From positions 1-33,870 of the forward strand of contig JARVKB010000020.1 of NCBI GenBank assembly GCA_029775925.1: a DNA stretch of 33,870 nt, written 5' to 3'. The notes under the pieces are model-generated. The model saw only the letters and a list, made by a program, of their open reading frames with translations. It was not told the DNA's origin and did not search any database. The position numbers and the translations under genes were made by a program. Shown here piece by piece: positions 3,372 through 33,870 of this stretch (within the stretch, counting starts at the first letter, position 1; every line of letters starts with the position of its first letter). Source of the stretch: Nitrososphaeria archaeon (GTDB lineage Archaea > Thermoproteota > Nitrososphaeria > Nitrososphaerales > JACAEJ01).

Positions 3372-3443
3372 GGGCCGGTCGTCCAGTGGTAGGACACCCG
3401 CTTTGCAGGCGGGAGGTCGCGGGTTCGAATCCCGCCCGGTCCA
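3372..3443 (+). tRNA. tRNA-Ala (anticodon UGC)
   Basis: A 72-base cloverleaf with all arms paired: acceptor GGGCCGG with CCGGTCC, D stem GTCC/GGAC, anticodon stem CCCGC/GCGGG with loop TTTGCAG, and T arm GCGGG-TTCGAAT-CCCGC. The anticodon is TGC. The G3:U70 wobble pair, the main alanine identity element, is present (G3374 with T3440). The discriminator base is A and no CCA is encoded. There is no intron. A TATA-like GATATATC lies about 28 bases upstream. An open frame across the tRNA on the other strand is an artefact. Confidence 0.97.
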
Positions 3444-3448
3444 CATAA

Positions 3449-5488: not shown

Positions 5489-5749
5489 TCAAAGGCCAGC
5501 CCATCTGAGCCTTCTTCTAATGGTACTAAAGGTTGGCACCACCGAAGTTTTAAAATGCGGGCCCATGGTGAACTCGAGTGCATCAAAGGCAATCCGAACA
5601 AAAAAGGCAATTAGATAAGGAAACAGGAAGGCGCCACCACCATTAGAACCTAATATGTAAGGAAAACGCCAGATGTTACCTATACCCACGGCAGAGCTTA
5701 TGCTTACAAGGATAAAGCCTATACTAGATGACCATCTCTCTCGTGGCAC
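5489..5749 (-). pseudogene. Remnant of a sodium:neurotransmitter-symporter-family transporter
   Basis: The 86-residue frame matches the start of NSS/SNF transporters. It has the W-S-S-x-x-GF entry, the first membrane helix with [14 protein letters not shown] (sodium-site region) and [12 protein letters not shown], then helix 2 with a weak ALEFTMG and the tail before helix 3. Real members have 11-12 helices and about 430-500 residues, so roughly four fifths is gone. The frame ends four bases from the end of the DUF169 gene, suggesting a deletion or rearrangement at that junction. The start is GTG. It is unlikely to make a working carrier. Confidence 0.75.
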
Positions 5750-8160: not shown

Positions 8161-9447
8161 TTACCAGGTTTTAGGAGGGAGACGGGCAAGAGGCTTTGCC
8201 AAATGCCTTCTAGCTCTAGGAGGGACTTCATAAATGCCTAATTTTATACTTCTTGGAGCTTCTTCGATTATTACTGATTCCTTGGGAAGCTTTTGCTTGC
8301 AATTTTTACATATAAATCCTTTTTCTTTTCCTGCTGACTTCATTCTTCTTTTGCATAAAGGACATATAGGATTTAACTTTTTTAATATTTGGCTTAGCTT
8401 AACTACCTCTATCTTCTCAAGGTTTACTGTTAATGGTAGATTTGGTTTTGGCTTCACTCCTCCATAAACTCTAACGACATCTCCAATAGTTAAGCCCTTA
8501 ACAATTTCCCTAAACTTTCTTGTAGGCTCATAAGCAGCGCAATCGATCACACCGCTATCATCCTTTATTTTGAATATCACGTGCCCTCCAGCTATTATTC
8601 TTGGCTTCTCACAAACTTCTCCTTTTATTGCAAAAGAACGATAAGGCTTAACTTCAGAAATTTTTGCATATATTATGTGCTCATCCGTGGCTTGATTCGT
8701 TTTATATATTATCCATCTCTCTATAGGTTCAAGGGCTTTCACCATTTTATGGGCCATCTTAGCTATTGATGGATTTTCAGCTCTAATTCCATAGAGAATT
8801 GGGCAAGGGGTGTGAGGGGTTATCCTTATCTCGCCCGTACTAGGATCGATGTTATCAAATGTATTAGGATAAGTCATTTCATCCATCTTAAATACTGATT
8901 CCCTATCTATTCTTCTCTCTTTTCCTCTATTACTAGGTACTCTATAAGCTATCAACTCATAAGTAAAGTCTTGCTCTAATCTCTCACCAATGGCTGCTAA
9001 AGCTCCTATTATCCCTCTTCCTATCTTGAATTTATGATACTCAGCTCCTATCTTCTTTGCCAATTCTTCTGCTTCATCTATGCTTACTATATCTTGAATT
9101 ACTTTTCTTGAAAATAATTTTAATTCTTTAGGTATATTCTCACCTTCAAGAAAGACTACCCCTGGATTCGTAGTTTCATGGTCCAACTCAGCTAATTCTT
9201 CTACTGTTCTAATTACCATCTTCTTAATTCTATCAATTAAATCATCTTCAGCTTCAACTTCGATGGCAATAGCACAGTTCCCTCTTGTCTTCAAGATCCA
9301 ATTTGGATTCAGCCTTATCAATCGAGGATAATCAACGATCTTCGCGCCCATCTCGATAATCCTATCTACCACTACCGCACCAACATAAGTTGTACACATT
9401 CCATCTTTAGAATCTGTATCGTCAAAGCCTATTTGAATCCTTTTCAC
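8161..9447 (-). CDS. tiaS: tRNA(Ile2) 2-agmatinylcytidine synthetase TiaS
   Basis: TiaS attaches agmatine to C34 of the CAU-anticodon isoleucine tRNA so that it reads AUA. The 428-residue protein has the family layout. It starts with IGFDDTDSKDGMCTTYVG, followed by the RLNPNWILKTRGNCA segment and the catalytic central domain with GRGIIGALAAIG. A long middle part with HTPCPILYGIRAE, an OB-fold region (residues about 270-350) and a C-terminal zinc ribbon (CPLC...CKNC) complete it. It starts at ATG 9447. This archaeon-specific gene supports the archaeal assignment. Confidence 0.95.
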   Translation of the reverse strand: MKRIQIGFDDTDSKDGMCTTYVGAVVVDRIIEMGAKIVDYPRLIRLNPNWILKTRGNCAIAIEVEAEDDLIDRIKKMVIRTVEELAELDHETTNPGVVFLEGENIPKELKLFSRKVIQDIVSIDEAEELAKKIGAEYHKFKIGRGIIGALAAIGERLEQDFTYELIAYRVPSNRGKERRIDRESVFKMDEMTYPNTFDNIDPSTGEIRITPHTPCPILYGIRAENPSIAKMAHKMVKALEPIERWIIYKTNQATDEHIIYAKISEVKPYRSFAIKGEVCEKPRIIAGGHVIFKIKDDSGVIDCAAYEPTRKFREIVKGLTIGDVVRVYGGVKPKPNLPLTVNLEKIEVVKLSQILKKLNPICPLCKRRMKSAGKEKGFICKNCKQKLPKESVIIEEAPRSIKLGIYEVPPRARRHLAKPLARLPPKTW

Positions 9448-9742
9448 TATGAGAAAATATGAGTTATTAACTAAAATCTTTTTCTAAACTTACTAGATGA
9501 TGTTAAGAAATAATGCCCTTATGATTCTCTATAACTCCCCATTTTAATAGAAAGAAAAATTATCTTTCAAAGATCGTCTTCCTTTTCCCTTAATAGATCT
9601 ATATTTATCACTATGATAAAGTGTGAACCATTCTAGAGGAAAAGAAGATTTTTGCTATTGGATACTTCTAGTTGAGTTATTGACAAAAGATAATAGATTA
9701 TCATTTTTGAAAGAATAAAAAATTGTAGTAAGAGGGCTTACC
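9448..9742. other. Intergenic spacer, 295 bp
   Basis: AT-rich sequence between tiaS and the Lrp-type gene on the same strand. I see TATA-like stretches near its left end that could serve tiaS, but no open frame with a recognisable product and no clear RNA gene. Confidence 0.3.
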
Positions 9743-9976
9743 TTATGTTTCAACTACTATCATTGTTAGCGTCGATCTAACTTTATCTAGTCTCCTTATC
9801 TTCCATGTTATCGTTTCCTTTAGTTTCTCCATAGTGTCAGCTTCTATCTTCGCGACAATATCGTAAACACCATAAACCACATAAACCTCTTTAACATTCT
9901 CAATTTTCTTTAACCCTTTGACTAACTCCTCTTCTGCTCCGAGTTCTACGTTTATCAACACAAAGGCTGTTGGCAT
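9743..9976 (-). CDS. Stand-alone Lrp/AsnC ligand-binding (RAM) domain protein
   Basis: This 77-residue protein consists only of the effector-binding RAM domain of Lrp/AsnC regulators. It begins AFVLINVELGAEEEL, continues with VKEVYVVYGVYDIVAKIEAD (the conserved GxYDI core) and ends with the strand STLTMIVVE. The usual N-terminal helix-turn-helix is absent, so it cannot bind DNA alone. Such proteins form the same ring dimers and may bind amino acids or partner with full-length regulators. A TATA-like AAATTTATTAAG about 25 bases upstream suggests a near-leaderless transcript. Confidence 0.85.
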   Translation of the reverse strand: MPTAFVLINVELGAEEELVKGLKKIENVKEVYVVYGVYDIVAKIEADTMEKLKETITWKIRRLDKVRSTLTMIVVET

Positions 9977-19801: not shown

Positions 19802-21205
19802 ATGGTTAAATTTAGATATACCAAAATGGCTTACGCAGATCCTGATGACATGGTTTTCGGCCACGCCATATATCCTGTCTTTTGTAAAAATTGGAATATA
19901 CAATTTGGCGCGGGGTATGTAGTTCCTGAGGTTAAGGTTGCCCCAAGGCCTGGAACCGGGGATTCTTTAGAAAAATTGAAGGCGGAACATGAGAAGATAA
20001 CAAGAGATGCGTGCGATAGAGCAGCTGCTATAGGTATACCTTTCTTCATGATCGAGCAAGAACACGTATTTCAACAGACTTACAATCCGAAGTGGGCCGG
20101 AGAGATAACAGCCCTCCAAGCAGCTATAATTGAAGAGTATGTGAGCAAGTATGGAATGAAGGCAGCTCTAAGACAGACCGTTGGTGATATCAGAGTTGCA
20201 GAAAAGCCGGGAGGTCTCCGTGAATCTTTGGGCTCAGAGTACGATAGGCGCATAGCCGAGACTGTCGAGGAGTGTTGTAGAAACGGTGCAAGCGATATAT
20301 GTATGGAAACCATGGGTGGTAAAGAAGTACTTGACTATGGGTGTATGCGACAGGATATTCGTGCAATTCTGTTTGGAATAGGATACCTTGGTAGCATAGA
20401 TATGGAGTATGTTTGGGATAGGAATGTAAAAATATGCAGCAAGTACTCAACAAATCCGGGTGGAGAGACTAACTGCAGTGGTGCCAACACTCTAATGTTC
20501 GTAGCAGGAGGGCTAACATCCCATGACTTCCCCCACACAGTAGCTATGATGGGAAGGGCAATGGCCGCTGCAAGAACATTGGTGGCATATGAATGTGGTG
20601 CTGTAGGTCCTCACAAAGACTGTGCTTATGAAGGACCTATTGTCAAGGCCGTATCAGGTAGACCTGGTGCACAGGAAGGAAAGCAAGCTGTATGTGCCCA
20701 TGGCGATATAATGGGCAACACTATAGCTGCAGTGTGTGATGTCTGGAGCAATGAATCTGTAGAGTATCACTCTGAGTTCGGAGGGACTACTCCTGCAGTC
20801 TGGCTTCAGGCAACAGCTATGGAAGCAGCCTTAATGAACACTGCCATTCAGACAGGTCAGGCAAAAATTTTAAGAGATCTTTACACCCTTACAGATAGAT
20901 ATAGAGACCCACAAGGTTATTGTCTATCCTATGACAACGCTTGGAGGATTGGAAAAGCTTTGGTCGAGTATGGTAAGGACATATACTTGAGGGCTAGGGC
21001 AGCTGCTTTAGAAGCCGGTAAGATAATGAAGGAAGCTCACGAGAAGAGAGAAGTTGTCCTAACTCGCTTCGAGCTTGACTCTCTTGAAAGAGCTATGGCT
21101 GAACTTGAAGCTATGACAACAGAGACATCAAGGTGGGTTGAGAAATGCATAGCAGATTACAAGAGAAAGGTGCCTAACTTCAAGCCCGAGAACTATGGGC
21201 TATAA
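19802..21205 (+). CDS. mtaB: Methanol:corrinoid methyltransferase MtaB
   Basis: MtaB cleaves methanol and puts its methyl group on the Co(I) corrinoid of MtaC. The 467-residue protein is collinear with Methanosarcina MtaB from FxYTKMAYA to the closing FKPENYG. The three zinc ligands known from the M. barkeri enzyme are in place: E169 (ICMETMGGKE), C225 (ETNCSGANT) and C274 (KDCAYEG). The E-x-Y-H-x-E-F-G-G-T block is also intact. Co-linear mtaC starts 14 bases downstream. A long AT-rich region with a near-leaderless promoter precedes it. It would act in the cytoplasm as the MtaBC complex. Confidence 0.97.
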   Translation: MVKFRYTKMAYADPDDMVFGHAIYPVFCKNWNIQFGAGYVVPEVKVAPRPGTGDSLEKLKAEHEKITRDACDRAAAIGIPFFMIEQEHVFQQTYNPKWAGEITALQAAIIEEYVSKYGMKAALRQTVGDIRVAEKPGGLRESLGSEYDRRIAETVEECCRNGASDICMETMGGKEVLDYGCMRQDIRAILFGIGYLGSIDMEYVWDRNVKICSKYSTNPGGETNCSGANTLMFVAGGLTSHDFPHTVAMMGRAMAAARTLVAYECGAVGPHKDCAYEGPIVKAVSGRPGAQEGKQAVCAHGDIMGNTIAAVCDVWSNESVEYHSEFGGTTPAVWLQATAMEAALMNTAIQTGQAKILRDLYTLTDRYRDPQGYCLSYDNAWRIGKALVEYGKDIYLRARAAALEAGKIMKEAHEKREVVLTRFELDSLERAMAELEAMTTETSRWVEKCIADYKRKVPNFKPENYGL

Positions 21206-21219
21206 GAGGTGAAAGAAAA

Positions 21220-22029
21220 ATGGTACTTCCAAAAATAAAAAATACCGATTTTATCTTTAGACGATACAATGTAGAGTTAGAAGGGCCTGCCATACCTGTT
21301 GAAGAGACACCAGAAGTAAAAGGAGCTCTACCAAAAGAAGAGCCATACAAATCACTCGCATTGGCAGTAGTAAAAGGGGATACAGATATAGTTTTATCGA
21401 AGGTAAAGGATGCGTTAAAAACGATAAAACCTTTGGACATAATAGAGAAGGGACTGGCCAAAGGCATGGATGCAGTAGGTGCACTTTATGCCAGTGGTAC
21501 ATATTTCCTGCCAAACGTTATGGTAGCAGCTGATGCCATGATGGCTGGTATCGCTGAGTGTGAGAAAGCGTTAGGTAAGGCAACAGAAAAGAAGGGCAAA
21601 GTAGTTTGTCACGTTGCTGAAGGAGATCCTCACGACATAGGGAAGAACCTAGTCGTGATGTTCCTTAGAGCAGCAGGTTACGATGTAATAGACTTAGGAA
21701 GAGACGTCCCAATAGAGACAGTAGTAGATGCAGTTAAGAAAGAGAAGCCCATGTGGCTCACCGGAACGGCCCTTATGACAACTACGATGTCGGCCTTCCC
21801 GAAGATTTCTGAGAAGCTCAAGTCAATGGGCATAGATATTCCATTCGGTTGTGGTGGAGGAGCCCTATCTAAGGAATGGGTGGAATCTTTCGATCTTGGG
21901 TTCTTCGGTGCTAAAGCCCACCATGCGCCAAAGTTAGCAGATGCCATCCTTAAAGGTATGGGCTGGAAAGATCTTAGAGTAAAGTACAACGAAGTAGTTG
22001 GAGAGTACTCTACAGGCAAAGGTTGGTAA
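21220..22029 (+). CDS. mtaC: Methanol corrinoid protein MtaC
   Basis: MtaC carries the corrinoid that takes the methanol methyl group from MtaB and hands it to MtaA. The 269-residue protein has an N-terminal helical cap (FLPNVMVAADAM) and a B12-binding Rossmann domain with EGDPHDIGKN. H138 in that motif is the lower cobalt ligand. LTGTALMTTTM and GCGGGA bind the corrinoid tail. The sequence aligns throughout with M. barkeri MtaC. A ribosome-binding site GAGGTGA lies seven bases upstream, directly after the mtaB stop. A perfect palindrome follows the stop codon. Confidence 0.97.
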   Translation: MVLPKIKNTDFIFRRYNVELEGPAIPVEETPEVKGALPKEEPYKSLALAVVKGDTDIVLSKVKDALKTIKPLDIIEKGLAKGMDAVGALYASGTYFLPNVMVAADAMMAGIAECEKALGKATEKKGKVVCHVAEGDPHDIGKNLVVMFLRAAGYDVIDLGRDVPIETVVDAVKKEKPMWLTGTALMTTTMSAFPKISEKLKSMGIDIPFGCGGGALSKEWVESFDLGFFGAKAHHAPKLADAILKGMGWKDLRVKYNEVVGEYSTGKGW

Positions 22030-22032
22030 GAA

Positions 22033-22054
22033 GCATAGCGGAATTCCGCTATGC
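22033..22054 (+). terminator. Perfect 22-base palindrome after mtaC
   Basis: GCATAGCGGAA followed at once by its reverse complement TTCCGCTATGC starts three bases after the mtaC stop. A CCCACAATTTTATTTT tract follows. An 11-pair hairpin here could mark the end of a mtaBC transcript or protect its 3' end, leaving mtaA to its own promoter 66 bases later. A dimeric protein-binding site is the alternative. Confidence 0.6.
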
Positions 22055-22119
22055 CCACAATTTTATTTTAAAACTTTATTTATTTTAACTTCATTAACTT
22101 AATTTAAGGTGATAAAATA

Positions 22120-23148
22120 ATGGTTGAACTCACTCCTAAAGAAAGGGCATTCAAGATATTAAAAGGAGAGAAAGTGGATAGAATACCTGCCACTTCGCTT
22201 GCTGGTTGCGGAGGAACAGTGAACGTAGAAATGCAAGAAGCTACAGGAATTTTTTGGCCAGAGGCTCATAAAGATCCTGAGAAGATGGCTAAGCTTGCTA
22301 TAGCAAGTTATGAACTTACCGGACTAGAATGTGTAAGGGTTCCGTTCGATTTCGTAGAGGAACCTGAAGCTCTCGGTTGTAAGATAAAGTTCGGTGAGAA
22401 GGTAGACTCTGTCCCTGCGGTTGTCGAACATGTTTTTAGTAGTCCTGAAGAACTTAAAAAGCCTGAGAACATACTCGAACTAGGGAGAATACCCGTTGTA
22501 TTAAAGGCAATAGAGATATTAAAAGAAAGAGTCGGTGATTTTCTACCTATCTCGAGTCTTGCTCTTGGTCCATTTACGCTTGCAGCCATGCTGGCTGGAG
22601 AAGCAAGATTCTTAACATGGGTATTAAAGAAACCTGATTATGTAAGGGCCTTCGTGGATTTTTCGACTGATGTTATCATAGAATATGCCAAAGCACAGTA
22701 TAAAGCTGGATCTCATATAGTTCAGATAGGTGATCCAACTGCATCTCCTGATCTAATAAGCCCAGACGCCTTTAGACAGTTCGCTAAACCTGCGTTGATA
22801 GAAGTAGCTGATAATCTTGATGGATTAAAGCTTTTACATATATGTGGGAAGGCAGAATCCATCGTCCCTGATATGGCAGATTGTGGTTATCATGGGATAA
22901 GCGTTGAAGAATCTGTAAATATATCTAGGATAAAAACTCTTGTAGGAAATGTAAAAATATTGGGCAATATAAATTCGAAGCGTACACTGCTATTTGGCAA
23001 ACCTGAGGAAGTGGAAGCTGAAGTGAAGTTAGCTATAGCTAGCGGCGTTGATTTCGTTGAGCCAGGTTGCGGTTTTGCCCCAAGAACCCCAACAAGAAAC
23101 ATAAAAGCTATGGTAGAAGCTACTAAGAAGTTTGGAGTGAAGACGTAA
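22120..23148 (+). CDS. mtaA: Methylcobamide:CoM methyltransferase MtaA
   Basis: MtaA moves the methyl group from methyl-MtaC to coenzyme M, giving methyl-CoM for methyl-CoM reductase (not in this window). The 342-residue protein has the URO-D TIM-barrel fold. The zinc ligands are present as H240-x-C242 (LLHICG) and C317 (EPGCGFAPRTPT). The N-terminal TPKERAFKILKGEKVDRIP is family-typical. MtbA for methylamines is similar, but adjacency to mtaBC supports MtaA. AAGGTGAT ends six bases before ATG 22120. The 90-base gap with the palindrome suggests partly separate expression. Confidence 0.93.
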   Translation: MVELTPKERAFKILKGEKVDRIPATSLAGCGGTVNVEMQEATGIFWPEAHKDPEKMAKLAIASYELTGLECVRVPFDFVEEPEALGCKIKFGEKVDSVPAVVEHVFSSPEELKKPENILELGRIPVVLKAIEILKERVGDFLPISSLALGPFTLAAMLAGEARFLTWVLKKPDYVRAFVDFSTDVIIEYAKAQYKAGSHIVQIGDPTASPDLISPDAFRQFAKPALIEVADNLDGLKLLHICGKAESIVPDMADCGYHGISVEESVNISRIKTLVGNVKILGNINSKRTLLFGKPEEVEAEVKLAIASGVDFVEPGCGFAPRTPTRNIKAMVEATKKFGVKT

Positions 23149-23188
23149 ACCGAAACTTATTTTTTCTTATTTAAAATATCCTGAAAAA

Positions 23189-23908
23189 TTAACTTTGTGC
23201 CTTCTGTCTCTCTTCCTCTTCTTTTTTCATAACCTTGACGGCACTCATTATTTGATCTATTAGCATCTTTACCTTATCAACAGCTTCTAATGCATCTTTT
23301 CCATAAGCATCTGATCCTATTTCTTTTCTCCATTCTTCAGTTACCGTACCGCCACCAATAATGGTCTTAACCTTGTCCTTTAGACCCACTTCTTTTAACT
23401 TGTCTTCAACTTCCTTCATGGATAGAAGTGTAGGTGTCATTAAAGTTGACATGGCTATCACATTTGCACCCTCTTTCTGAGCTGATTGAACAAAATCTTT
23501 TGATGGTATATCTCTTCCTAAGTCTATTACATTATAACCTGCTGCCATGAGCATCGCCTTGACTATGTTCTTACCTATATCATGAACATCCCCTTCCACT
23601 ACTCCTATGACTATGGTACCTTTAGCTTTAGTCTCGGTCTTTGGCAGAAGTGGTAATAAAACATTAAGACCAGCGTACATAGCATCAGCAGATAATAGAA
23701 CTTCTGGTAAGAAGTATTCCTTGCACTCATATTTCTCTCCTACTATCTTCATTCCTGCTGCCAAACCATCGACAATTCCTATATAGGCTTGCTCTTTTCC
23801 TGCTTTGACTAATTCTGCCCATTCTTGCGCTGCTTTCGTTACTGCAGCCTCATCACCAACAACAACACCATCAGCCATTCTTTTTAGAATATCTTCTCTT
23901 TGGCTCAT
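23189..23908 (-). CDS. MttC/MtbC-type methyltransferase corrinoid protein
   Basis: A second corrinoid carrier of 239 residues, with an N-terminal cap containing YFLPEVLLSADAM and the B12 motif EGDVHDIGKN; H109 would be the cobalt ligand. The STLMTP and IIGGGTV loops complete the site. It resembles the carriers for methylamines, betaine or methoxy compounds more than MtaC. No matching MtbB/MttB-type methyltransferase gene is adjacent, so its methyl source is unknown. It is convergent with mtaA (40-base gap). A strong AAGGAGAT precedes ATG 23908. Confidence 0.9.
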   Translation of the reverse strand: MSQREDILKRMADGVVVGDEAAVTKAAQEWAELVKAGKEQAYIGIVDGLAAGMKIVGEKYECKEYFLPEVLLSADAMYAGLNVLLPLLPKTETKAKGTIVIGVVEGDVHDIGKNIVKAMLMAAGYNVIDLGRDIPSKDFVQSAQKEGANVIAMSTLMTPTLLSMKEVEDKLKEVGLKDKVKTIIGGGTVTEEWRKEIGSDAYGKDALEAVDKVKMLIDQIMSAVKVMKKEEEERQKAQS

Positions 23909-24039
23909 CTAATCTCCTTAGCATCAATAGTTACACTGTTATATTAATTTTATTCTGTCTTGCTGGCTATCTAAGATCAAAGATAATAATAGCGTTATGT
24001 TTATTTTCCTACAATTCTATAAATATAGAAGATCGGGGC

Positions 24040-24693
24040 ATGTTGAACTCTTCTTCTGAAATTGATGATTACATTAACGAACTTGTGTATGGGCATAAGA
24101 TCGATTTTCCCAAAATTATAACTTTATTTCTCTTGATAAAGGAGAAAGGCCCTATAGGTCGGTATAAAATAGTCAAGGAGTTGGAGATTCCCGAAGGTAT
24201 TGCAAGAGGCGCTTTATCTTATCTAACAAATTTGGGTTTTTTTCATAAAACAAAAAAAGGCACAGTATTGACAGAAACAGGATCAAGTATTTTATCGATG
24301 ATATTTAAAAAAACAGGAATTAAAAGTATCAAGAACTTTAATTTTGATTTCATGGCTTTAGATAGCTGTTGCGCAGTCGCACAATTGTCTCATAGAAAAA
24401 GCCTTAATGTTTTGACATTAAGGGACAAAGCTGTAAGAGCGGGCGCTTCAGCGTTTATGTTGATTTCTTATGAAAGGGATAGATTTGTCATCCCTAAAGT
24501 TTACAAAGATATCTCAACAGTTTTTCCACCCTTGGCTGAGAAATTGAGTAAAGAATTCTCTCTTACAGATGGTGATTTACTAGCGTCTGCCTTTGCGCGT
24601 AATGCTTGGAAAGCTTCATATGCCTTAATATCTGTAGCAATTAACGATTATACTTATCTTATTACGAGTTCTAATAAAAGAAAGTTTCTATAA
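24040..24693 (+). CDS. DUF4443 winged-helix transcriptional regulator
   Basis: The 217-residue protein has an N-terminal winged-helix region at about residues 25-90, with IGRYKIVKELEIPEGIARGALSYLTNLGF as the recognition half. A C-terminal domain of the DUF4443 type follows, with the C-C pair in LDSCCAVAQLS, VRAGASAFMLISY and GDLLASAFARNAWKASYALI. It sits between the two halves of the methyl-transfer cluster and is divergent from the second corrinoid protein (131 bp between), so it may regulate one or both. The ligand is unknown. The start is ATG 24040. Confidence 0.7.
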   Translation: MLNSSSEIDDYINELVYGHKIDFPKIITLFLLIKEKGPIGRYKIVKELEIPEGIARGALSYLTNLGFFHKTKKGTVLTETGSSILSMIFKKTGIKSIKNFNFDFMALDSCCAVAQLSHRKSLNVLTLRDKAVRAGASAFMLISYERDRFVIPKVYKDISTVFPPLAEKLSKEFSLTDGDLLASAFARNAWKASYALISVAINDYTYLITSSNKRKFL

Positions 24694-24724
24694 AAATAGT
24701 GCAAAAATTTTTGCACTATTTTTA
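24691..24724. terminator. Perfect 34-base palindrome between convergent genes
   Basis: TAAAAATAGTGCAAAAA is followed at once by its exact reverse complement TTTTTGCACTATTTTTA. It overlaps the last bases of the DUF4443 gene and lies 20 bases beyond the end of the convergent URO-D-like gene. Each strand ends in a run of T after a GTGC/GCAC stem, so it can stop transcription from both sides. Confidence 0.65.
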
Positions 24725-24744
24725 TTTATTGATTAAGTCTGTGC

Positions 24745-25815
24745 TTATAATGTTTTTATAGCATCCGTAATCGCTTTCACTTTTTCTATAGGTTCTTCAT
24801 CTATAACTATTGGGTTATCAGAGCTTAATATAAAACCTCCCTCCTTACCTAATTTGTCGATTAAATTTCTGCAATAAACTCTAACATCTTCTTTATTTGT
24901 AAATTTCAAGAGCGATACATTGCCCATAATACACATATGGTTTCCGATGTTCTCTTTTGCTTTTATGATGTCTGTAGAGCTATCTAAATGTAGAATGCAT
25001 TCTTCCTTAGGGAGCTCTTTAAGGTAATTAAATATTGGATATGCATTAACATCGAACTGTAATATAGGCAATATCTTAGCATCTATGAGTTGCTCTATCA
25101 TTATTTTTGCTGTTGGCCAGACAAACGAAGAAAAATGAGGAGTGCCTATACTTTCAGGGGTCGAATTTATGAAGCTCAACCATATCCTTCTTACATTAGA
25201 TATCGTACAGAGCTTTATAAAGAGATTTGTCATATCATCTACAATTGTATTACATGCCCTAACTATTTTCCATGGATATCTTACAATATCCTTAGCGATT
25301 TCTGTGAATCCTCTAGCATAGGCAAGAAAACCGAAAGGCACTATTCCTAAAGCTCCTGCGTAAAGAGGAACTTTTCTCTCTTCCTCCCACTTTTGAGCGA
25401 AAGTCTTCGTCTTCTCTGCAGCGCTAATCACAGCTTTCTCTATATCTTCATCAATATCCTGCTCCTTGTAAACCCGAGAAATATAGCCTATAAATCCTTC
25501 TCCTATGAGCTCATCGTACCCATTAGAATCCTTCATTATGATCATCGCTTCTCGGGCACCGAGTTTACATGGTGTATAGGTCCTCCCAGTCATTAAGGTT
25601 AAAGGCCAAAAGAAAAAGCCATCGCATCCTCCTAAATCTGTGAATATCTTCTCAAAATTCTCTTCAGCCTTTCTAAGATCTGGAGGGGTATGTAGAGTTA
25701 TAACAGGAGCTATTGGTACCCTATCAGGTCTTTCAAGCCTCAAAGCCATGTTTATTCTTTCTAAAGGAGATATGGGTCTTGAAACTTCTTCTAGCACTTC
25801 CTCGATGGTCTTCAT
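24745..25815 (-). CDS. URO-D family protein without MtaA zinc ligands
   Basis: This 356-residue protein has the uroporphyrinogen decarboxylase/MtaA fold; the N-terminal SPLERINMALRLERPDRVPIAP is typical. Where MtaA has LLHICG it reads ILQFDVN, and where MtaA has the third cysteine (EPGCGF) it reads LSSDNP, so all three zinc ligands are missing. It is therefore not a CoM methyltransferase of the MtaA type. URO-D-fold proteins also serve as substrate-specific methyltransferases, for example vanillate O-demethylase MtvB. It is transcribed 33 bases after ramA, so a methyl-transfer or corrinoid-related role is likely; the substrate is unknown. Confidence 0.75.
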   Translation of the reverse strand: MKTIEEVLEEVSRPISPLERINMALRLERPDRVPIAPVITLHTPPDLRKAEENFEKIFTDLGGCDGFFFWPLTLMTGRTYTPCKLGAREAMIIMKDSNGYDELIGEGFIGYISRVYKEQDIDEDIEKAVISAAEKTKTFAQKWEEERKVPLYAGALGIVPFGFLAYARGFTEIAKDIVRYPWKIVRACNTIVDDMTNLFIKLCTISNVRRIWLSFINSTPESIGTPHFSSFVWPTAKIMIEQLIDAKILPILQFDVNAYPIFNYLKELPKEECILHLDSSTDIIKAKENIGNHMCIMGNVSLLKFTNKEDVRVYCRNLIDKLGKEGGFILSSDNPIVIDEEPIEKVKAITDAIKTL

Positions 25816-25848
25816 GATTCTTCAATAAAAGATCCAAACATTAATTAT

Positions 25849-27492
25849 TTATTTAAATTTTTCATGGAGTAGTTCTTTATACCTAAATACTTTTTGAGGG
25901 CAAACTCTCTCACATCTTAAACATGCAACACCAAGGCATAGATCTGATCTTACGAGTATTTTACCCGTTCCATCTATCTCCTTTACTGTAATCGCTCCTT
26001 CAGGGCACTCTACCTCACATGATCTGCAAGCGTTACACCCTGTAAATTCACCGATAAGTAAAACTCCGATATCTTTTATTATTTTTAGACCTTTTTCACC
26101 CAGGTCGGGAATATCTCTTTTGAATATTTTGTAAACCTTCGGATTCTTGGCTTTTCTTGGAAAACCTTGATAGTTATATTTTTTTAACCATTGTTCATAT
26201 TGCCATAAAGGCATACCTTCTTCCCAATATGCAAGTTCAAGAGGATAAACTTGCATGAATACCTGAGATTCTGGGAACATTATATGCTTCCCCCTTATCT
26301 GCTTGGCCATATCCTGCAAAAAATCGATCAGTTCAGGCTTGAGAACTATATCCCTTGCTAACGCAAGAGAAGTGTTTCCTACCTGGTAGATAGTCTCACA
26401 ACATCTTGGTATCTGCCCAACATTCAAGGACTTAAAAGCGTCAACATAAAAGCCAGACGCACCTGCCATGTAAGCTACGTTCACATCATCTTGAAGTACT
26501 CCGGCCTCTTCTGCCAAAGTAAAGTAACCAGCTCTAAAGGCCCCTAAAGCTTTCCCAGCCTCTTTCACATCCTTTTCAGTTACATAAATTCCATCTTGAA
26601 GGTGAATTTTTCTATCTACTGCGTTTACCTTTGGCAAGGTTATGAGACCTAGATCTATTCCTATGCTTATAATGGCTATTACGCCTGTTCCAGTCACCCC
26701 TAAAGCTTTACCGTGCATTTCACCTTGTTCCAAAACCTTACCTGTTGATGGGACAACTACATCCCCTTCGCATGCTATAAGTTCATTATTCAAAACATAA
26801 TTCCTCCACCCAAGAGTAGAAACATTCACATCACTGATAGCGCCAGGAGAAGCTAACATGCCTTTTTCTATTCTTTGACCTTCTATAGCAGGTCCTGCTG
26901 CTGCAGAGCCTGTATATATCTCGCCATTGTAGCAAAGAGCCATTTCTGCATTGGTACCAAAATCTGTAACAAAAGCATTCTCTCTCTTCTCAAATATCTT
27001 TGCTTCGTATAACATGGCTAAGGCATCAGCACCTATTTCATGCTTGACAGAAGGTGGGATGTATACCTTGGCTTTATCCTTCACTGATATGCCCAATTTC
27101 CCTGCCTCTATTATCGTTGCATCCCTTGTTGGTGGCTTAACTCCATATCTCTCAAGTGCATGCTTTCCCCAATATGCAAGATCTCTTATCTCTATTCCCT
27201 GGAAGATCGACAATTGGGTAGGATTGCCACTTGCCGCTAATAGCTCCACTTTATTCAGGTTTATATCCAAAGCTTTGATTATTCTATTCACTGCATCAAT
27301 CACTACAGCATGGGCTGTCTCTATGCCTATCTCTACTGCAAAGTGTAAATGGTCCATGATGTTTGCTCCAGGTAGTGGATGTCTCAAAGTTATGGCTGTA
27401 GATATTAGCTTCCCTGTGCTCAGATCTATTGCTTGTGCCCTTAAGCCACTAGTCCCTATGTCTAGTGCTATACCATATCCCTCTTCATTCAT
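25849..27492 (-). CDS. ramA: RamA-like corrinoid activation protein
   Basis: RamA-type proteins use ATP and low-potential electrons to reduce inactive Co(II) corrinoid back to Co(I). The 547-residue protein starts with an ASKHA ATPase fold (IALDIGTSGLRAQ), followed by VTDFGTNAEMAL, GSAAAGPAIEG and TGTGVIAIIS. It ends with two 4Fe-4S motifs, C-x2-C-x2-C-x3-C (CNACRSCEVEC) and C-x4-C-x2-C-x3-C (CLGVACLRCERVC). That C-terminal ferredoxin domain is the archaeal RamA arrangement; bacterial RACE proteins carry a 2Fe-2S domain at the N-terminus. The start is ATG 27492, or TTG three bases upstream. It is the first gene of a pair with the URO-D-like gene and probably serves MtaC and the second corrinoid protein. 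Confidence 0.93.
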   Translation of the reverse strand: MNEEGYGIALDIGTSGLRAQAIDLSTGKLISTAITLRHPLPGANIMDHLHFAVEIGIETAHAVVIDAVNRIIKALDINLNKVELLAASGNPTQLSIFQGIEIRDLAYWGKHALERYGVKPPTRDATIIEAGKLGISVKDKAKVYIPPSVKHEIGADALAMLYEAKIFEKRENAFVTDFGTNAEMALCYNGEIYTGSAAAGPAIEGQRIEKGMLASPGAISDVNVSTLGWRNYVLNNELIACEGDVVVPSTGKVLEQGEMHGKALGVTGTGVIAIISIGIDLGLITLPKVNAVDRKIHLQDGIYVTEKDVKEAGKALGAFRAGYFTLAEEAGVLQDDVNVAYMAGASGFYVDAFKSLNVGQIPRCCETIYQVGNTSLALARDIVLKPELIDFLQDMAKQIRGKHIMFPESQVFMQVYPLELAYWEEGMPLWQYEQWLKKYNYQGFPRKAKNPKVYKIFKRDIPDLGEKGLKIIKDIGVLLIGEFTGCNACRSCEVECPEGAITVKEIDGTGKILVRSDLCLGVACLRCERVCPQKVFRYKELLHEKFK

Positions 27493-27615
27493 CAAGATTA
27501 TTATAAAATATGAATATAATTATATTTTCTTGATCATAAGAATTTTTATCTTTGTTAGATGGTTAAACTCCTTTATCTTTTAAGACTTTAATAACATCAA
27601 CGACTATTGTAACTT

Positions 27616-28848
27616 ATGCATGAGAAAATAGACAAGTTCAGATCAATAAACAACCCATACAAGGATCATATAATAATTCATCCTATCATGAGAGGAGGGA
27701 TAATACCTGATGATATACAAAAAATACTGATCGATGAAGGATGGATGAAAGTTGGTTATGCAATCTGTTACGATTGTCTTGAAGGAAGATCCAGCTTAGT
27801 CTCAAAACCCCCTATCAATGATTTTCTTTCAAGTATAGCAGAATTCTTTAATGGAGATACAGCCGAGCATACTTTTGGATCAAGGGCCGCTCAGTTTTCT
27901 GTTATGAAAACTATAGCAGATAATATCTCAGAAGAATTTACTAAAATAGTTATAACTGATTCTTTATGCCATTATACGACTGTAATTGCAGCGGAGATGA
28001 ACAATCTTAAGATTTTAGAGGTAAATCACTCCGGTTATCCAGAATACAAAGTTAGAGCTGAAGATTTTATAGATAAGATTGAAAGCGTAAAAAAGGAAAC
28101 TGGGAAACGGCCTGCTTTAATAGCTATAACTCATGCCGATCCTTATTATGGAAATTTAAATCCAGTTAAAGAGGTAGGCAAGATAGCAAAAGAGTTTAAT
28201 ATACCATACATGATCAATGCTGCTTACACAGCAGGCATATTCCCTGTTAACATGAAAGATTTACAAGCAGACTTCATTACAGTTTCTGCTCATAAATCTA
28301 TGGCTTCGATAGGTCCTTTGGGCTTTTTGATTACAAATCAAGATTGGTCCGATAAAACCTTTAAGAAATCGACGATAAAGCTTGATTGGACTGGAAGGAC
28401 GTTCAGCAAAAAAATCGTAAACATCTTTGGTTGCAGTATTGGAGGATTGCCGTTAATTTCAGCGATGTACTCTTTTCCTTACGTTGTAGAGAGAGTCGAG
28501 AGATGGGAAGAGGAATTGAATAAGGCGAGATGGTTTATCTCAGAAATGGAGAAGATAGATGGCATAAGACTAGTAGGAGAAAGGCCTCATAATCATCACC
28601 TTATGCATTTCGAGACTCCGATCTTTTGGGAGATATCAAAGCATCATAAAAGGAAAGGATTCTTCCTTGCTGAAGAGATGATAAAGAGAGGCATAGTTGG
28701 GCTACATCGTGGATTAAGTAAACATGTAAAAATTTCTTTGTATGGGTTAAGTTGGGAAGAAGTAAAGAATGTTAGAGATACTTTTTATGACATAGCCAAA
28801 AAATATATTGACGAGTTTAAGATAAATTTCGATTTAAATAAGACATAA
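27616..28848 (+). CDS. pscS: O-phosphoseryl-tRNA(Cys):Cys-tRNA synthase (SepCysS)
   Basis: SepCysS converts phosphoseryl-tRNA(Cys), made by SepRS, to Cys-tRNA(Cys) using PLP and a sulfur donor. The 410-residue fold-type I protein has the PLP lysine K227 in SAHKSM. The three catalytic cysteines known in methanogen enzymes are C51 and C54 (CYDCLEG) and C273 (FGCSIGG). RGGIIP and ITHADPYYGN are also typical. It is divergent from ramA with 123 bases between. SepRS is not in this window. The enzyme marks the indirect cysteine pathway of methanogens and relatives. Confidence 0.95.
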   Translation: MHEKIDKFRSINNPYKDHIIIHPIMRGGIIPDDIQKILIDEGWMKVGYAICYDCLEGRSSLVSKPPINDFLSSIAEFFNGDTAEHTFGSRAAQFSVMKTIADNISEEFTKIVITDSLCHYTTVIAAEMNNLKILEVNHSGYPEYKVRAEDFIDKIESVKKETGKRPALIAITHADPYYGNLNPVKEVGKIAKEFNIPYMINAAYTAGIFPVNMKDLQADFITVSAHKSMASIGPLGFLITNQDWSDKTFKKSTIKLDWTGRTFSKKIVNIFGCSIGGLPLISAMYSFPYVVERVERWEEELNKARWFISEMEKIDGIRLVGERPHNHHLMHFETPIFWEISKHHKRKGFFLAEEMIKRGIVGLHRGLSKHVKISLYGLSWEEVKNVRDTFYDIAKKYIDEFKINFDLNKT

Positions 28849-32045: not shown

Positions 32046-32132
32046 GGGCCGGTAGCTCAGCTTGGTTAGAGCGTTGAGCTGATAAAAATTGCGGATACTC
32101 AAAGGTCGCCGGTTCAAATCCGGCCCGGCCCA
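32046..32132 (+). tRNA. tRNA-Ile (anticodon GAU) with 12-base intron
   Basis: Acceptor GGGCCGG pairs with CCGGCCC, the D stem is GCTC/GAGC, and the T arm is GCCGG-TTCAAAT-CCGGC. The anticodon stem is TTGAG/CTCAA, but the loop between is 19 bases instead of seven. Removing 12 bases at the usual site after position 37 leaves loop CTGATAA, anticodon GAT. The intron (about 32085-32096) is AAAATTGCGGAT or a one-base shift. The mature tRNA is 75 bases, discriminator A, no encoded CCA. A TATA-like CATAAAAA lies about 30 bases upstream. An integrase remnant begins 45 bases after its 3' end. Confidence 0.93.
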
Positions 32133-32176
32133 CTTAAATTTTTAAGTGAATCTTGGAATATCCTTCCCTCTAATCG

Positions 32177-33134
32177 ATGATTATGGGGTCTAAGTACGCA
32201 CATCTGCTGGAGGATGCGGACGTTAGGCGCTGGTTTGATAACTTGGTGGCCAAGTCGGTTGTGACTGCAACGGTTTATCTCAGGACTTTGGGATTTTACT
32301 GTGAACTTAACAGGACTGACCCTAAGGCTATTCTTAGGGTTGCTAGAACTAAGGCTTTCAGGGATGACTTCACAGACTTTGTCCGGAAGATGGAAAAGGA
32401 GGGAAAAAGCTGGCTCCTACTTGTCCAGGTTTAAGAAGGTGCTCAACAGCTGGCTCGCCTATAACGGCGTTAACGTTAAGCTAAAGGTCAACATTAAAGG
32501 CGAGTCTGACACACCAAGAATCACTGATGAACGCGTGCCCAGCAAGGAGGAGCTTGACAGAATCCTCAGAATGGCTACGCCTAGAGGAAGAGTTTCAATC
32601 GCCCTAATGGCCTTCAGCGGGTTAAGACCGGAATCAATAGGAAACTATGATGGAAGCGACGGCCTGAAGCTTGGGGATTTTGTTGAAGCTAAAGTCAGCC
32701 CGGACGGCATAGAATTCCCAAAAGTTCCATCCATGCTCATAATAAGGAAAAGCCTCAGCAAAGCTAGGCATCAGTACTTCACATTCGTTCCTCAACAAAC
32801 AATAACCTACATTCAAGAATATTTGACGGAGAAGGTTAAGCAAGATGAAGAATTGAGTAAGGATTCTCCGCTTCTGGGTTTTGATCCGAGGGGCGTCAAT
32901 AAGAACAGGTTTCTAAGGACGACTTTAGTTACGAGAGACATTAAAGAGTCCATTTTAAAGGCCGGTTTCAGCTGGAGACCATACGTTTTAAGGGCTTACT
33001 GCGATACAAACATGATTATATCTGAGTCCAAGGGCAAAATCAGTCACCCATACTTGCAGTTTATTATGGGGCATAGCCAAAAAAGTATGGGAACAATCTC
33101 GTTCAGAGGCTTGTCTGCTTGGGCTGTTATCTGA
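32177..33134 (+). pseudogene. Tyrosine recombinase/integrase, frameshifted and lacking the catalytic Tyr
   Basis: The N-terminal part (from ATG 32177) has the core-binding domain VRRWFDNLVAKSVVTATVYL. At a run of five A (32404-32408) the frame shifts; dropping one A rejoins it to SYLSRFKKVLNSWLAYNG. The catalytic domain shows Arg I (MAFSGLRPESIGNYDGSDG), the lysine turn (LSKARHQYF), Arg II (RPYVLRAYCDT) and MGH in FIMGHSQKSM. The expected tyrosine block (family EARYTTNKG) is not found; the frame ends SFRGLSAWAVI. It is an archaeal plasmid/provirus integrase placed next to tRNA-Ile, the classic integration target. Confidence 0.85.
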
Positions 33135-33198
33135 AGCTTTCTAGGCTCAAGGAGGCACGGAACCCTCTCACTGATGCTGATTTTGGTGAAATCTTTGC

Positions 33199-33870
33199 TC
33201 ATCGAACCTTTCCTTCTCGAGATGCCATGTAGACTTTGTATACGCGTTTTTCTCTAACAGCTTGCATGGCCTTTTTTGATAAGTATTCGAGGGATTCAAC
33301 AATTTCTGGAAGGAGTTTTGCTGGAATTCCCATGAACATGTGCTCAGGCGGCGTATCTGTGGCTTCGCGGCATCCATAACAGCCAGGGCTTATGTTAACC
33401 TCGCCTGTAATGTAGGGAACCACTGTTACATCTACGCAGCAGCATTGGAAAATGGAGGAGCTAAAGTTGAGGCGTCCCCCTTCTTTGAAGTTTCTGGCTA
33501 GGCAAAGCCACATTATCTGTTCAGGAAGCCCTTCAACCACGACGATGTCCGGCGTTAAAATAAAATCTTTTAAGATGCCGGCGACTACTGCCTTTGCCTC
33601 CCCAAGTTTTATTCGAGGTATCATGCTCATTGTTTTTGCAGCAGCTTCCTTGGTCGTGTAAAGTCCCAATGAACAAAGCATTTCTCCACTTGCAATCTTC
33701 TCTGGCAAAGGCGCAAAGCCCATTGCTGCTTTAGCCGCTGGACAGGCTAAATCCTCAGCAGTCAACATTAGTGTTTGCCCTCGTCTAGCAAGCATGAGAA
33801 GTTGACAATATCTGGATTTCTGTGGTGGAGACTTTATGTTCGGTTTTTGCTCCTCTGTTTTAACTATTTT
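33199..33870 (-). CDS. DUF169 family protein (partial, runs off the right edge)
   Basis: The frame is open to the window end, so the start lies beyond it. The first visible residues include KSRYCQLLMLARRG and LTAEDLACPAAKAAMGF, the DUF169 pattern RYCQ...D..ACP.A...GF. VEGLPEQIMWL, FQCCCVDVT, ISPGCYGCREAT and HMFMGIPAKLLPEIVESL follow. An internal ATG at 33795 would cut the conserved RYCQ block, so it is not the true start. It is only distantly like the DUF169 gene at 4.7 kb. It lies in the more GC-rich segment beyond the integrase and may be cargo. Confidence 0.8.
   Translation of the reverse strand, partial: KIVKTEEQKPNIKSPPQKSRYCQLLMLARRGQTLMLTAEDLACPAAKAAMGFAPLPEKIASGEMLCSLGLYTTKEAAAKTMSMIPRIKLGEAKAVVAGILKDFILTPDIVVVEGLPEQIMWLCLARNFKEGGRLNFSSSIFQCCCVDVTVVPYITGEVNISPGCYGCREATDTPPEHMFMGIPAKLLPEIVESLEYLSKKAMQAVREKRVYKVYMASREGKVR

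Follow-up and report, generated by a model that had tools for sequence, protein, structure and literature searches.

A contig from an archaeal genome carries at its end the remnant of an element that was integrated at the 3' end of a tRNA-Ile(GAT) gene by means of a tyrosine integrase and then decayed, a reading to which we assign a probability of about 0.88. The window, that is, the whole stretch of 33,870 bases analyzed here, is the entire contig C21 of a MAG (34 contigs, 1.40 Mb, 96% complete, 3.2% estimated contamination), and its bases 1–917 are an archaeal 16S rRNA gene. Recombination between the attP core and the tRNA 3' end would have produced attL (the whole tRNA, an arm and the integrase) in the window and attR (an arm, an 11-bp tRNA end and the host flank) on contig C23. 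A one-base insertion into the integrase gene and the removal of its catalytic tail at 33075 would have followed, with DUF169 remaining to the left and ligase-fragment, ArsR-type and thioredoxin-like genes to the right. An integrated remnant at tRNA-Ile had been proposed in the initial annotation, and both borders and an empty site in three relatives now bear this out. Features are listed in Table 1.

Table 1. Features of the integrated element, the sibling integrase copies and the mosaic integrase genes.
Feature	Location	Strand	Basis or remark
tRNA-Ile(GAT), 12-nt intron, integration target	32046..32132	+	Rfam tRNA 63.4 bits (32046-32132); ARAGORN with introns 32046-32133
attL core GGCCCGGCCCA, last 11 nt of tRNA-Ile	32122..32132	+	second copy elsewhere in genome
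Left arm TTAAGTGAATCT, probable integrase binding site (inferred)	32142..32153	+	sequence comparison with C23, C19, C29
Integrase N-terminal reading frame, 85 aa	32177..32434	+	open reading frame
Integrase remainder, second frame, homology up to H299 of sibling	32388..33075	+	alignment
Extra base in A-run, breaks integrase frame	32404	+	alignment with C29, C11, L082, L084, L095
Break point and ~120 bases, not integrase	33076..33198	.	integrase homology ends at 33075
DUF169 gene, cut by contig end, probably foreign cargo	33199..33870	-	PF02596 E 7.8e-55; deviant codon use
Integrase, intact, 435 aa	C29		at Arg-like tRNA
Integrase copy with two stops	C11		at tRNA-Val(GAC)
Integrase copy, degenerate	C17		at tRNA-Ala(CGC)
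Integrase N-terminal relic	C19		beside tRNA-end-like core
Mosaic integrase gene	L083 9977-11302		compared with L018 (C29) 8522-9826
Mosaic integrase gene	L085 9986-11302		compared with L018 (C29) 8522-9826

The target gene at 32046-32132 was missed by ARAGORN run without introns. Its left flank, comprising prephenate dehydratase and the tRNA-Ile gene itself, is common to the window, two genomes of the same genus (G001 and G002) and one of the same family (G003). In all three relatives the tRNA-Ile site is unoccupied and host genes follow directly: a 157-aa membrane gene, a 237-aa gene in G001 and G002, and then panE and glnA (identified by eye). The left-flank homology to the window stops at 32132 (G001 and G003) or 32138 (G002). 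In the genome studied here, the host stretch found behind the relatives' tRNA-Ile is located on C23, where homology to the host flank of G002 begins at C23:146154, the first base of a second 11-bp copy of GGCCCGGCCCA (C23:146144-146154). A scan of 100,894 bases gave two occurrences of this 11-mer, one at the tRNA-Ile gene (32122-32132) and one on C23. This copy at the start of the host flank, together with the empty site in the relatives, identifies attL in the window and attR at C23:146144-146154, outside it. The direct repeat of the tRNA end is thus present at both borders, which lie on different contigs. Because the repeat is only 11 bp, attR, the second tRNA-Ile 3' end for which a search had been suggested, could be reached solely via the host flank: no copy was found at the end of the window, and a longer copy of the tRNA-Ile end (22 nt, at most 3 mismatches) occurs in the same genome at seven places, none of them an attR. 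Inside the core, the window has a C where the relatives have a T (GGTCCGGCCCA).

Both borders also carry related arms. The sequence GGACTCACTTAATTTTTTAATTGCATAT directly precedes the attR core on C23, and its inverse carries a twin of the attL arm; read in reverse, the C23 arm ends in TTAAGTGAGTCC, compared with TTAAGTGAATCT at attL. Further relatives of the arm are found on C19 (TTAAGTGAGTCC) and C29 (TTAAGTGAATCC), the nearly identical C19 arm having the same relation to a tRNA-end-like core as that on C23. Across eight scanned stretches, exact copies of the 12-mer TTAAGTGARTCC number three (on C29, C19 and C23), always beside a tRNA end; the window, C11 and C17 have versions with one or more differences. 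The left arm is a probable binding site of the integrase.

Two observations count against the integration reading at its right border. No assembled sequence joins attL and attR, which lie on different contigs, and a simple insertion leaves unexplained why host-like genes (HtpX, GNAT and a tRNA) occur only about 2.1 kb beyond attR on C23. The intervening element side encodes part of a DNA ligase, a regulator of the ArsR type and thioredoxin-like proteins, with 38–51% G+C over most of its length and 33% around C23:146751-147050. A DNA-level search of 121 genomes, with two candidates scored per genome, matched these 2.1 kb only to their own genome, so that their foreign origin, which also weighs on the integration reading, rests on gene content and on a G+C content that is not uniform. 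No capsid or packaging genes were seen in the assembled pieces of the element, the middle of which, between attL and attR, is unassembled.

The neighborhood of HtpX could be explained by a misjoin of C23 by the assembler at a duplicated thioredoxin cassette, so that C21 would be followed by a gap and then by thioredoxin, ArsR, ligase and attR, with no rearrangement; we rate this at slightly under even odds. The cassettes at C30:13039-13336 and C23:147266-147563 are 97% identical, their last 57 bases exactly so, and C30, which carries leuS, ends inside the thioredoxin stretch that it has in common with C23. The HtpX contig of G002 also carries DUF169, an ArsR-type gene and leuS (by eye and homology), and a misjoin would restore this HtpX–leuS order. 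Contigs C29 and C19 likewise end in a shared stretch, of 126 exact bases. However, the cassettes differ at 9 of 298 positions, and the assembler could therefore separate them over much of the stretch.

More tentatively, the chromosome may have been rearranged in addition to the integration, through recombination between the thioredoxin cassette of the element and that of the leuS locus on C30, which would have joined attR to the HtpX region. The same repeat is consistent with such an event, and so are the surroundings of HtpX, which stands with DUF169, an ArsR-type gene and leuS in G002, beside DUF169, thioredoxin and a transporter in G001, and beside attR here. Inversions between related integrated elements are on record in archaea, as described in part of PMC8371274. 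On the other hand, the end of C30 inside the shared stretch is equally expected from a misjoin. Moreover, the identity between C30 and G002 is 93% over 4,962 bases, compared with 78–86% in other long shared stretches, and C30 may therefore be a contaminant or a recent import.

The integrated DNA differs from its host flank in composition. G+C content increases from 36.4% (918-32045) to 45.3% (32134-33870). The increase is genuine, but not without parallel: of 588 equal-size windows taken elsewhere on the contig, 3 attain this value, and the DNA near 20 kb is equally rich. The initial annotation had noted the rise from about 32.2 kb; the border is placed slightly earlier by the homology, which ends at the tRNA 3' end. 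The change in codon use that it also described was confirmed, since the integrase pieces and DUF169 deviate more than every one of 24 host ORFs that we picked from the ORF list of the contig. The third-position G+C is 0.54 in the integrase pieces and 0.42 in DUF169, compared with 0.225–0.395 in the host ORFs. The integrase and DUF169 genes are foreign in both codon use and G+C. Among the host ORFs of the contig, codon use deviates most in a corrinoid methyltransferase-type gene cluster at 19802-28848 (named by eye), which is G+C-rich near 20 kb. At 5489-5749, on the minus strand, there is a truncated N-terminal piece of a sodium-dependent transporter, also named by eye.

Beyond the end of the integrase homology, positions 33076-33198 yielded a single chance-level match (E 0.41) apart from the window's own copies among the loci compared. 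The DUF169 stretch 33236-33870 is 92.4% identical over 635 bases to G012:C9, although G012 belongs to another family and its prephenate dehydratase shows a protein identity of 67%. The DUF169 gene was likely gained horizontally, and we infer that it, the thioredoxin genes and the ArsR gene are cargo of the element. Extension of C21 via the G012 neighbor of DUF169 gave no continuation in the genome studied here. The similarity of DUF169 to a genome of another family, the jump in G+C and codon use, the end of the contig 0.8 kb past the integrase and the estimated contamination might also suggest that the integrase–DUF169 end is a binning or assembly chimera foreign to the genome. This is very improbable, because the same 11-bp end forms attR at the orthologous right flank, which lies on a different contig, and because the same bin contains four sibling copies or relics of the integrase.

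The integrase start codon at 32177 lies 44 bases past the tRNA on the same strand, so the gene faces away from its target, as described initially, and was not split by integration (the classical non-suicidal arrangement). The gene is nevertheless damaged in two ways, both already recognized in the initial annotation. An extra base in the A-run GGGAAAAAGCT, absent from five of five aligned relatives, breaks the reading frame, with the second frame running on to 33134. Compared with the intact sibling on C29, this is the only indel before the homology stops at 33075; identity is 82% for residues 1–110 (both frames pieced together), 88% for residues 111–200 and 85% for residues 201–282. Tyrosine recombinases share the catalytic residues R, K, (H/Y)xxR, H and Y in this order. 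They are present in this order in intact members of the family, R150, K195, Y269, R272, H299 and Y307 being invariant in 25 intact integrase sequences. The window copy ends at H299, and the catalytic tyrosine Y307 is therefore lost. A consensus error at the A-run, conceivable in a MAG, is a further point against our reading of the decay. Although an A-run is a plausible slippery site, we rejected programmed frameshifting or transcript slippage, by which the broken integrase would still work, as having almost no probability, because the extra base is absent from the five relatives and the product would still lack Y307.

Presumably the element can no longer excise with its own integrase, and to this extent the suggestion that it is probably stuck stands. 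However, both att sites, their arms and an intact sibling integrase are present, so that excision might be rescued in trans.

Besides the window copy, the genome has four integrase copies or relics (on C29, C11, C17 and C19; Table 1), three of them preceded by a whole tRNA gene just upstream on the same strand (C29, C11 and C17). More distant integrases are encoded on C12 and elsewhere on C17. The tRNA at the C29 copy is Gln(CTG) according to ARAGORN; we take it to be Arg(TCT)-like, the assignment to Arg being unsure. A trace of the left end is found at C29:99636. An exact copy of the final 126 bases of C29, which lie at the 3' end of the integrase gene, is found 12 bases into C19, close to its start; those first 12 bases of C19 differ from C29. 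On the basis of this overlap, C29 and C19 likely join, and the sibling element would then be intact and about 8.8 kb long, encoding a RelE-like toxin, a metallophosphoesterase-type protein and a 710-aa protein with primase-like matches. Its right site would be at about C19:29600, followed by an older relic. No capsid or packaging PHROG was matched by the eight proteins of this element and C12. Similar tRNA-type sequences were observed at L021 14565-15397 (C17) and C23:150450-150555, one of them beside an integrase-like ORF (by eye); possibly they mark a second, unrelated integration site.

The 435-aa integrase of C29 has no Pfam match at E 0.01 and no PDB sequence match at E 1. It matches PHROG 1 'integrase' with E 1e-9, and scores 42 bits against the archaeal XerA model, far under the cut-off of 220 bits. 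The best Foldseek match of its predicted model (pLDDT 82.7, pTM 0.62) is archaeal XerA 4a8e (E 1e-7, TM by query 0.33), followed by the integron integrase, Cre and lambda Int among further matches. Given TM values by query of 0.24–0.41 and rmsd of about 5–17 Å for these, the predicted fold agrees with tyrosine recombinases at the domain level only.

The element adds a further example to a well-known kind, the classical, non-suicidal elements that integrate into archaeal tRNA genes. We compared it with known systems as presented in parts of PMC8371274 (including its account of Badel et al.), PMC6563490 and PMC3293823. Classical archaeal integrases of the pNOB8 type remain whole after integration, beside the tRNA and on the same strand, and prefer tRNA 3' ends (PMC8371274); the window integrase resembles them in being adjacent to the tRNA on the same strand and in using its 3' end. 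It differs in its 11-bp core, compared with 40–50 bp for the pNOB8 integrases of Sulfolobales (PMC8371274). Moreover, the pNOB8 integrase sequence family is defined by Phage_integrase (PF00589) with a SAM-like domain, and as the C29 sibling matches no Pfam family at E 0.01, we did not file it under that family. SSV-type suicidal integrases are likewise tyrosine recombinases with tRNA targets, but their attachment site is located inside the integrase gene, whereas here 44 bases separate the core from the start codon downstream.

Cryptic integrated elements of Thaumarchaeota have att sites down to 8 bp (median 17), use tRNA 3' ends, including those of intron-containing genes, and occur several per genome in different tRNA genes (PMC6563490). 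The short att, the use of a tRNA 3' end and of an intron-containing tRNA, and the occupation of several tRNA genes are common to our case; the co-residents in Thaumarchaeota were reported as different elements, whereas here they are close siblings of one integrase (PMC6563490). Close relatives among pT26-2-related integrases are found at different tRNA genes (Badel et al., per PMC8371274), as here, and inversion between related elements is a further likeness; however, the pT26-2-related integrases of Thermococcales are suicidal, while here the attachment site is outside the gene (PMC8371274). Close archaeal integrases at different tRNA genes are thus already published (PMC8371274). Badel et al. 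also describe classical integrases of Methanococcales with three targets (PMC8371274) and, in the part considered, a family without a Pfam domain, fam30-08, spread over classes or phyla. The ways in which integrases come to differ in specificity are incompletely understood (PMC8371274). In Ca. Caldiarchaeum, a recombinase-bearing insertion is located at tRNA-Thr (PMC3293823). It resembles our case in having a recombinase beside the tRNA, related copies in one genome and tRNA pieces separated by recombination, but there a 5' tRNA fragment is duplicated, and here the 3' end (PMC3293823). The proposal for Ca. Caldiarchaeum is intron gain, whereas here the intron is already present in the unoccupied tRNA-Ile of G001 and G002. 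Our integrase family was not found described in the parts of PMC8371274, PMC3293823, PMC6563490 and PMC10848311 considered.

Sixty two of 101 genomes searched, including the genome studied here, encode a match to the integrase family at E 0.001. Searches of phage and plasmid collections gave no family match, and IMG/VR gave none with a single protein and one remote match, at 21% identity, with an alignment. We surveyed 54 loci, excluding L050 and L051 as duplicates; a few others overlap in source. Of the surveyed loci, 47 included the N terminus together with upstream DNA; 26 of these have an ARAGORN tRNA at most 260 bases away, and 27 show a T-arm/acceptor pattern. Among loci with at least 60% identity (best segment), 15 of 18 have an ARAGORN tRNA 28–61 bases upstream; the remaining three are L096, which shows the pattern alone, C17, whose tRNA comes from a separate ARAGORN run, and C19, with only a core-like end. 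The association with tRNA genes is weaker for the more distant loci, where ARAGORN found a tRNA at 11 of 29. The 3' end of tRNA-Ala(TGC) in the window (3372-3444) resembles the targets of Ala-targeting siblings elsewhere, with no integrase behind it.

We then followed the targets on a tree of residues 1–282 (22 rows, 18 of them labelled, the C19 relic being left out), in which 10 of the 19 inner branches are open and long branches are flagged; four rows have less than half of the columns, and the outgroup does not form one side of a branch. Three target labels are our own reading: C29 as Arg-like, and L084 (Glu according to ARAGORN) and L096 as Val from the anticodon loop. The window copy belongs to a clade of seven (support 99/98) with two Ile, four Val and one Arg-like targets. 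The fewest target changes over the labelled rows are seven, as a raw count. The last 30–31 nt of the window tRNA-Ile are identical to those of the tRNA-Val(CAC) of L082 and L093, so these Ile/Val switches need no change of specificity. In contrast, the end shared with the window tRNA-Ile is 0 nt for the Arg-like tRNA and 3 nt for Ala (L080), and the other target changes do need one.

The integrases of L083 and L085 may be mosaic. Compared with C29, they are 41–56% identical in residues 1–282, 92–94% in residues 283–330 and 80–93% from there to the end. In comparisons by DNA blocks of 75, the identity of L085 with C29 or L081 is 41–68% for blocks one to eleven and 77–95% for the last four; the rise is smaller for L083 compared with L081 (71–79% in the last five), and L083 and L085 are 73–91% identical to each other throughout. 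In 15 more distant rows, residues 283–330 are also conserved (46–90%) and residues 331–435 are not (16–61%), which makes exchange of the catalytic tail the simplest reading of these sequences.

The remnant at tRNA-Ile is an almost complete case, with attL, attR, an unoccupied site, a dead integrase and an intact sibling, and it belongs to an integrase family that is matched in 62 of 101 genomes searched yet has no match in plasmid or phage collections and one remote match in IMG/VR. A broader scenario, which we offer as speculative and consider doubtful as a whole, is that the family reads the shared T-arm and acceptor end and not a single tRNA species, so that one lineage could occupy both tRNA-Ile and tRNA-Val(CAC) with its specificity unchanged, that siblings having the same arms could mobilize each other's dead relics in trans, that exchange of catalytic tails among co-resident copies would sustain the family and that its repeats would help to break the chromosome. 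The identical 30–31 nt end of tRNA-Ile and tRNA-Val(CAC) provides a simple test of integrase movement between tRNA genes.
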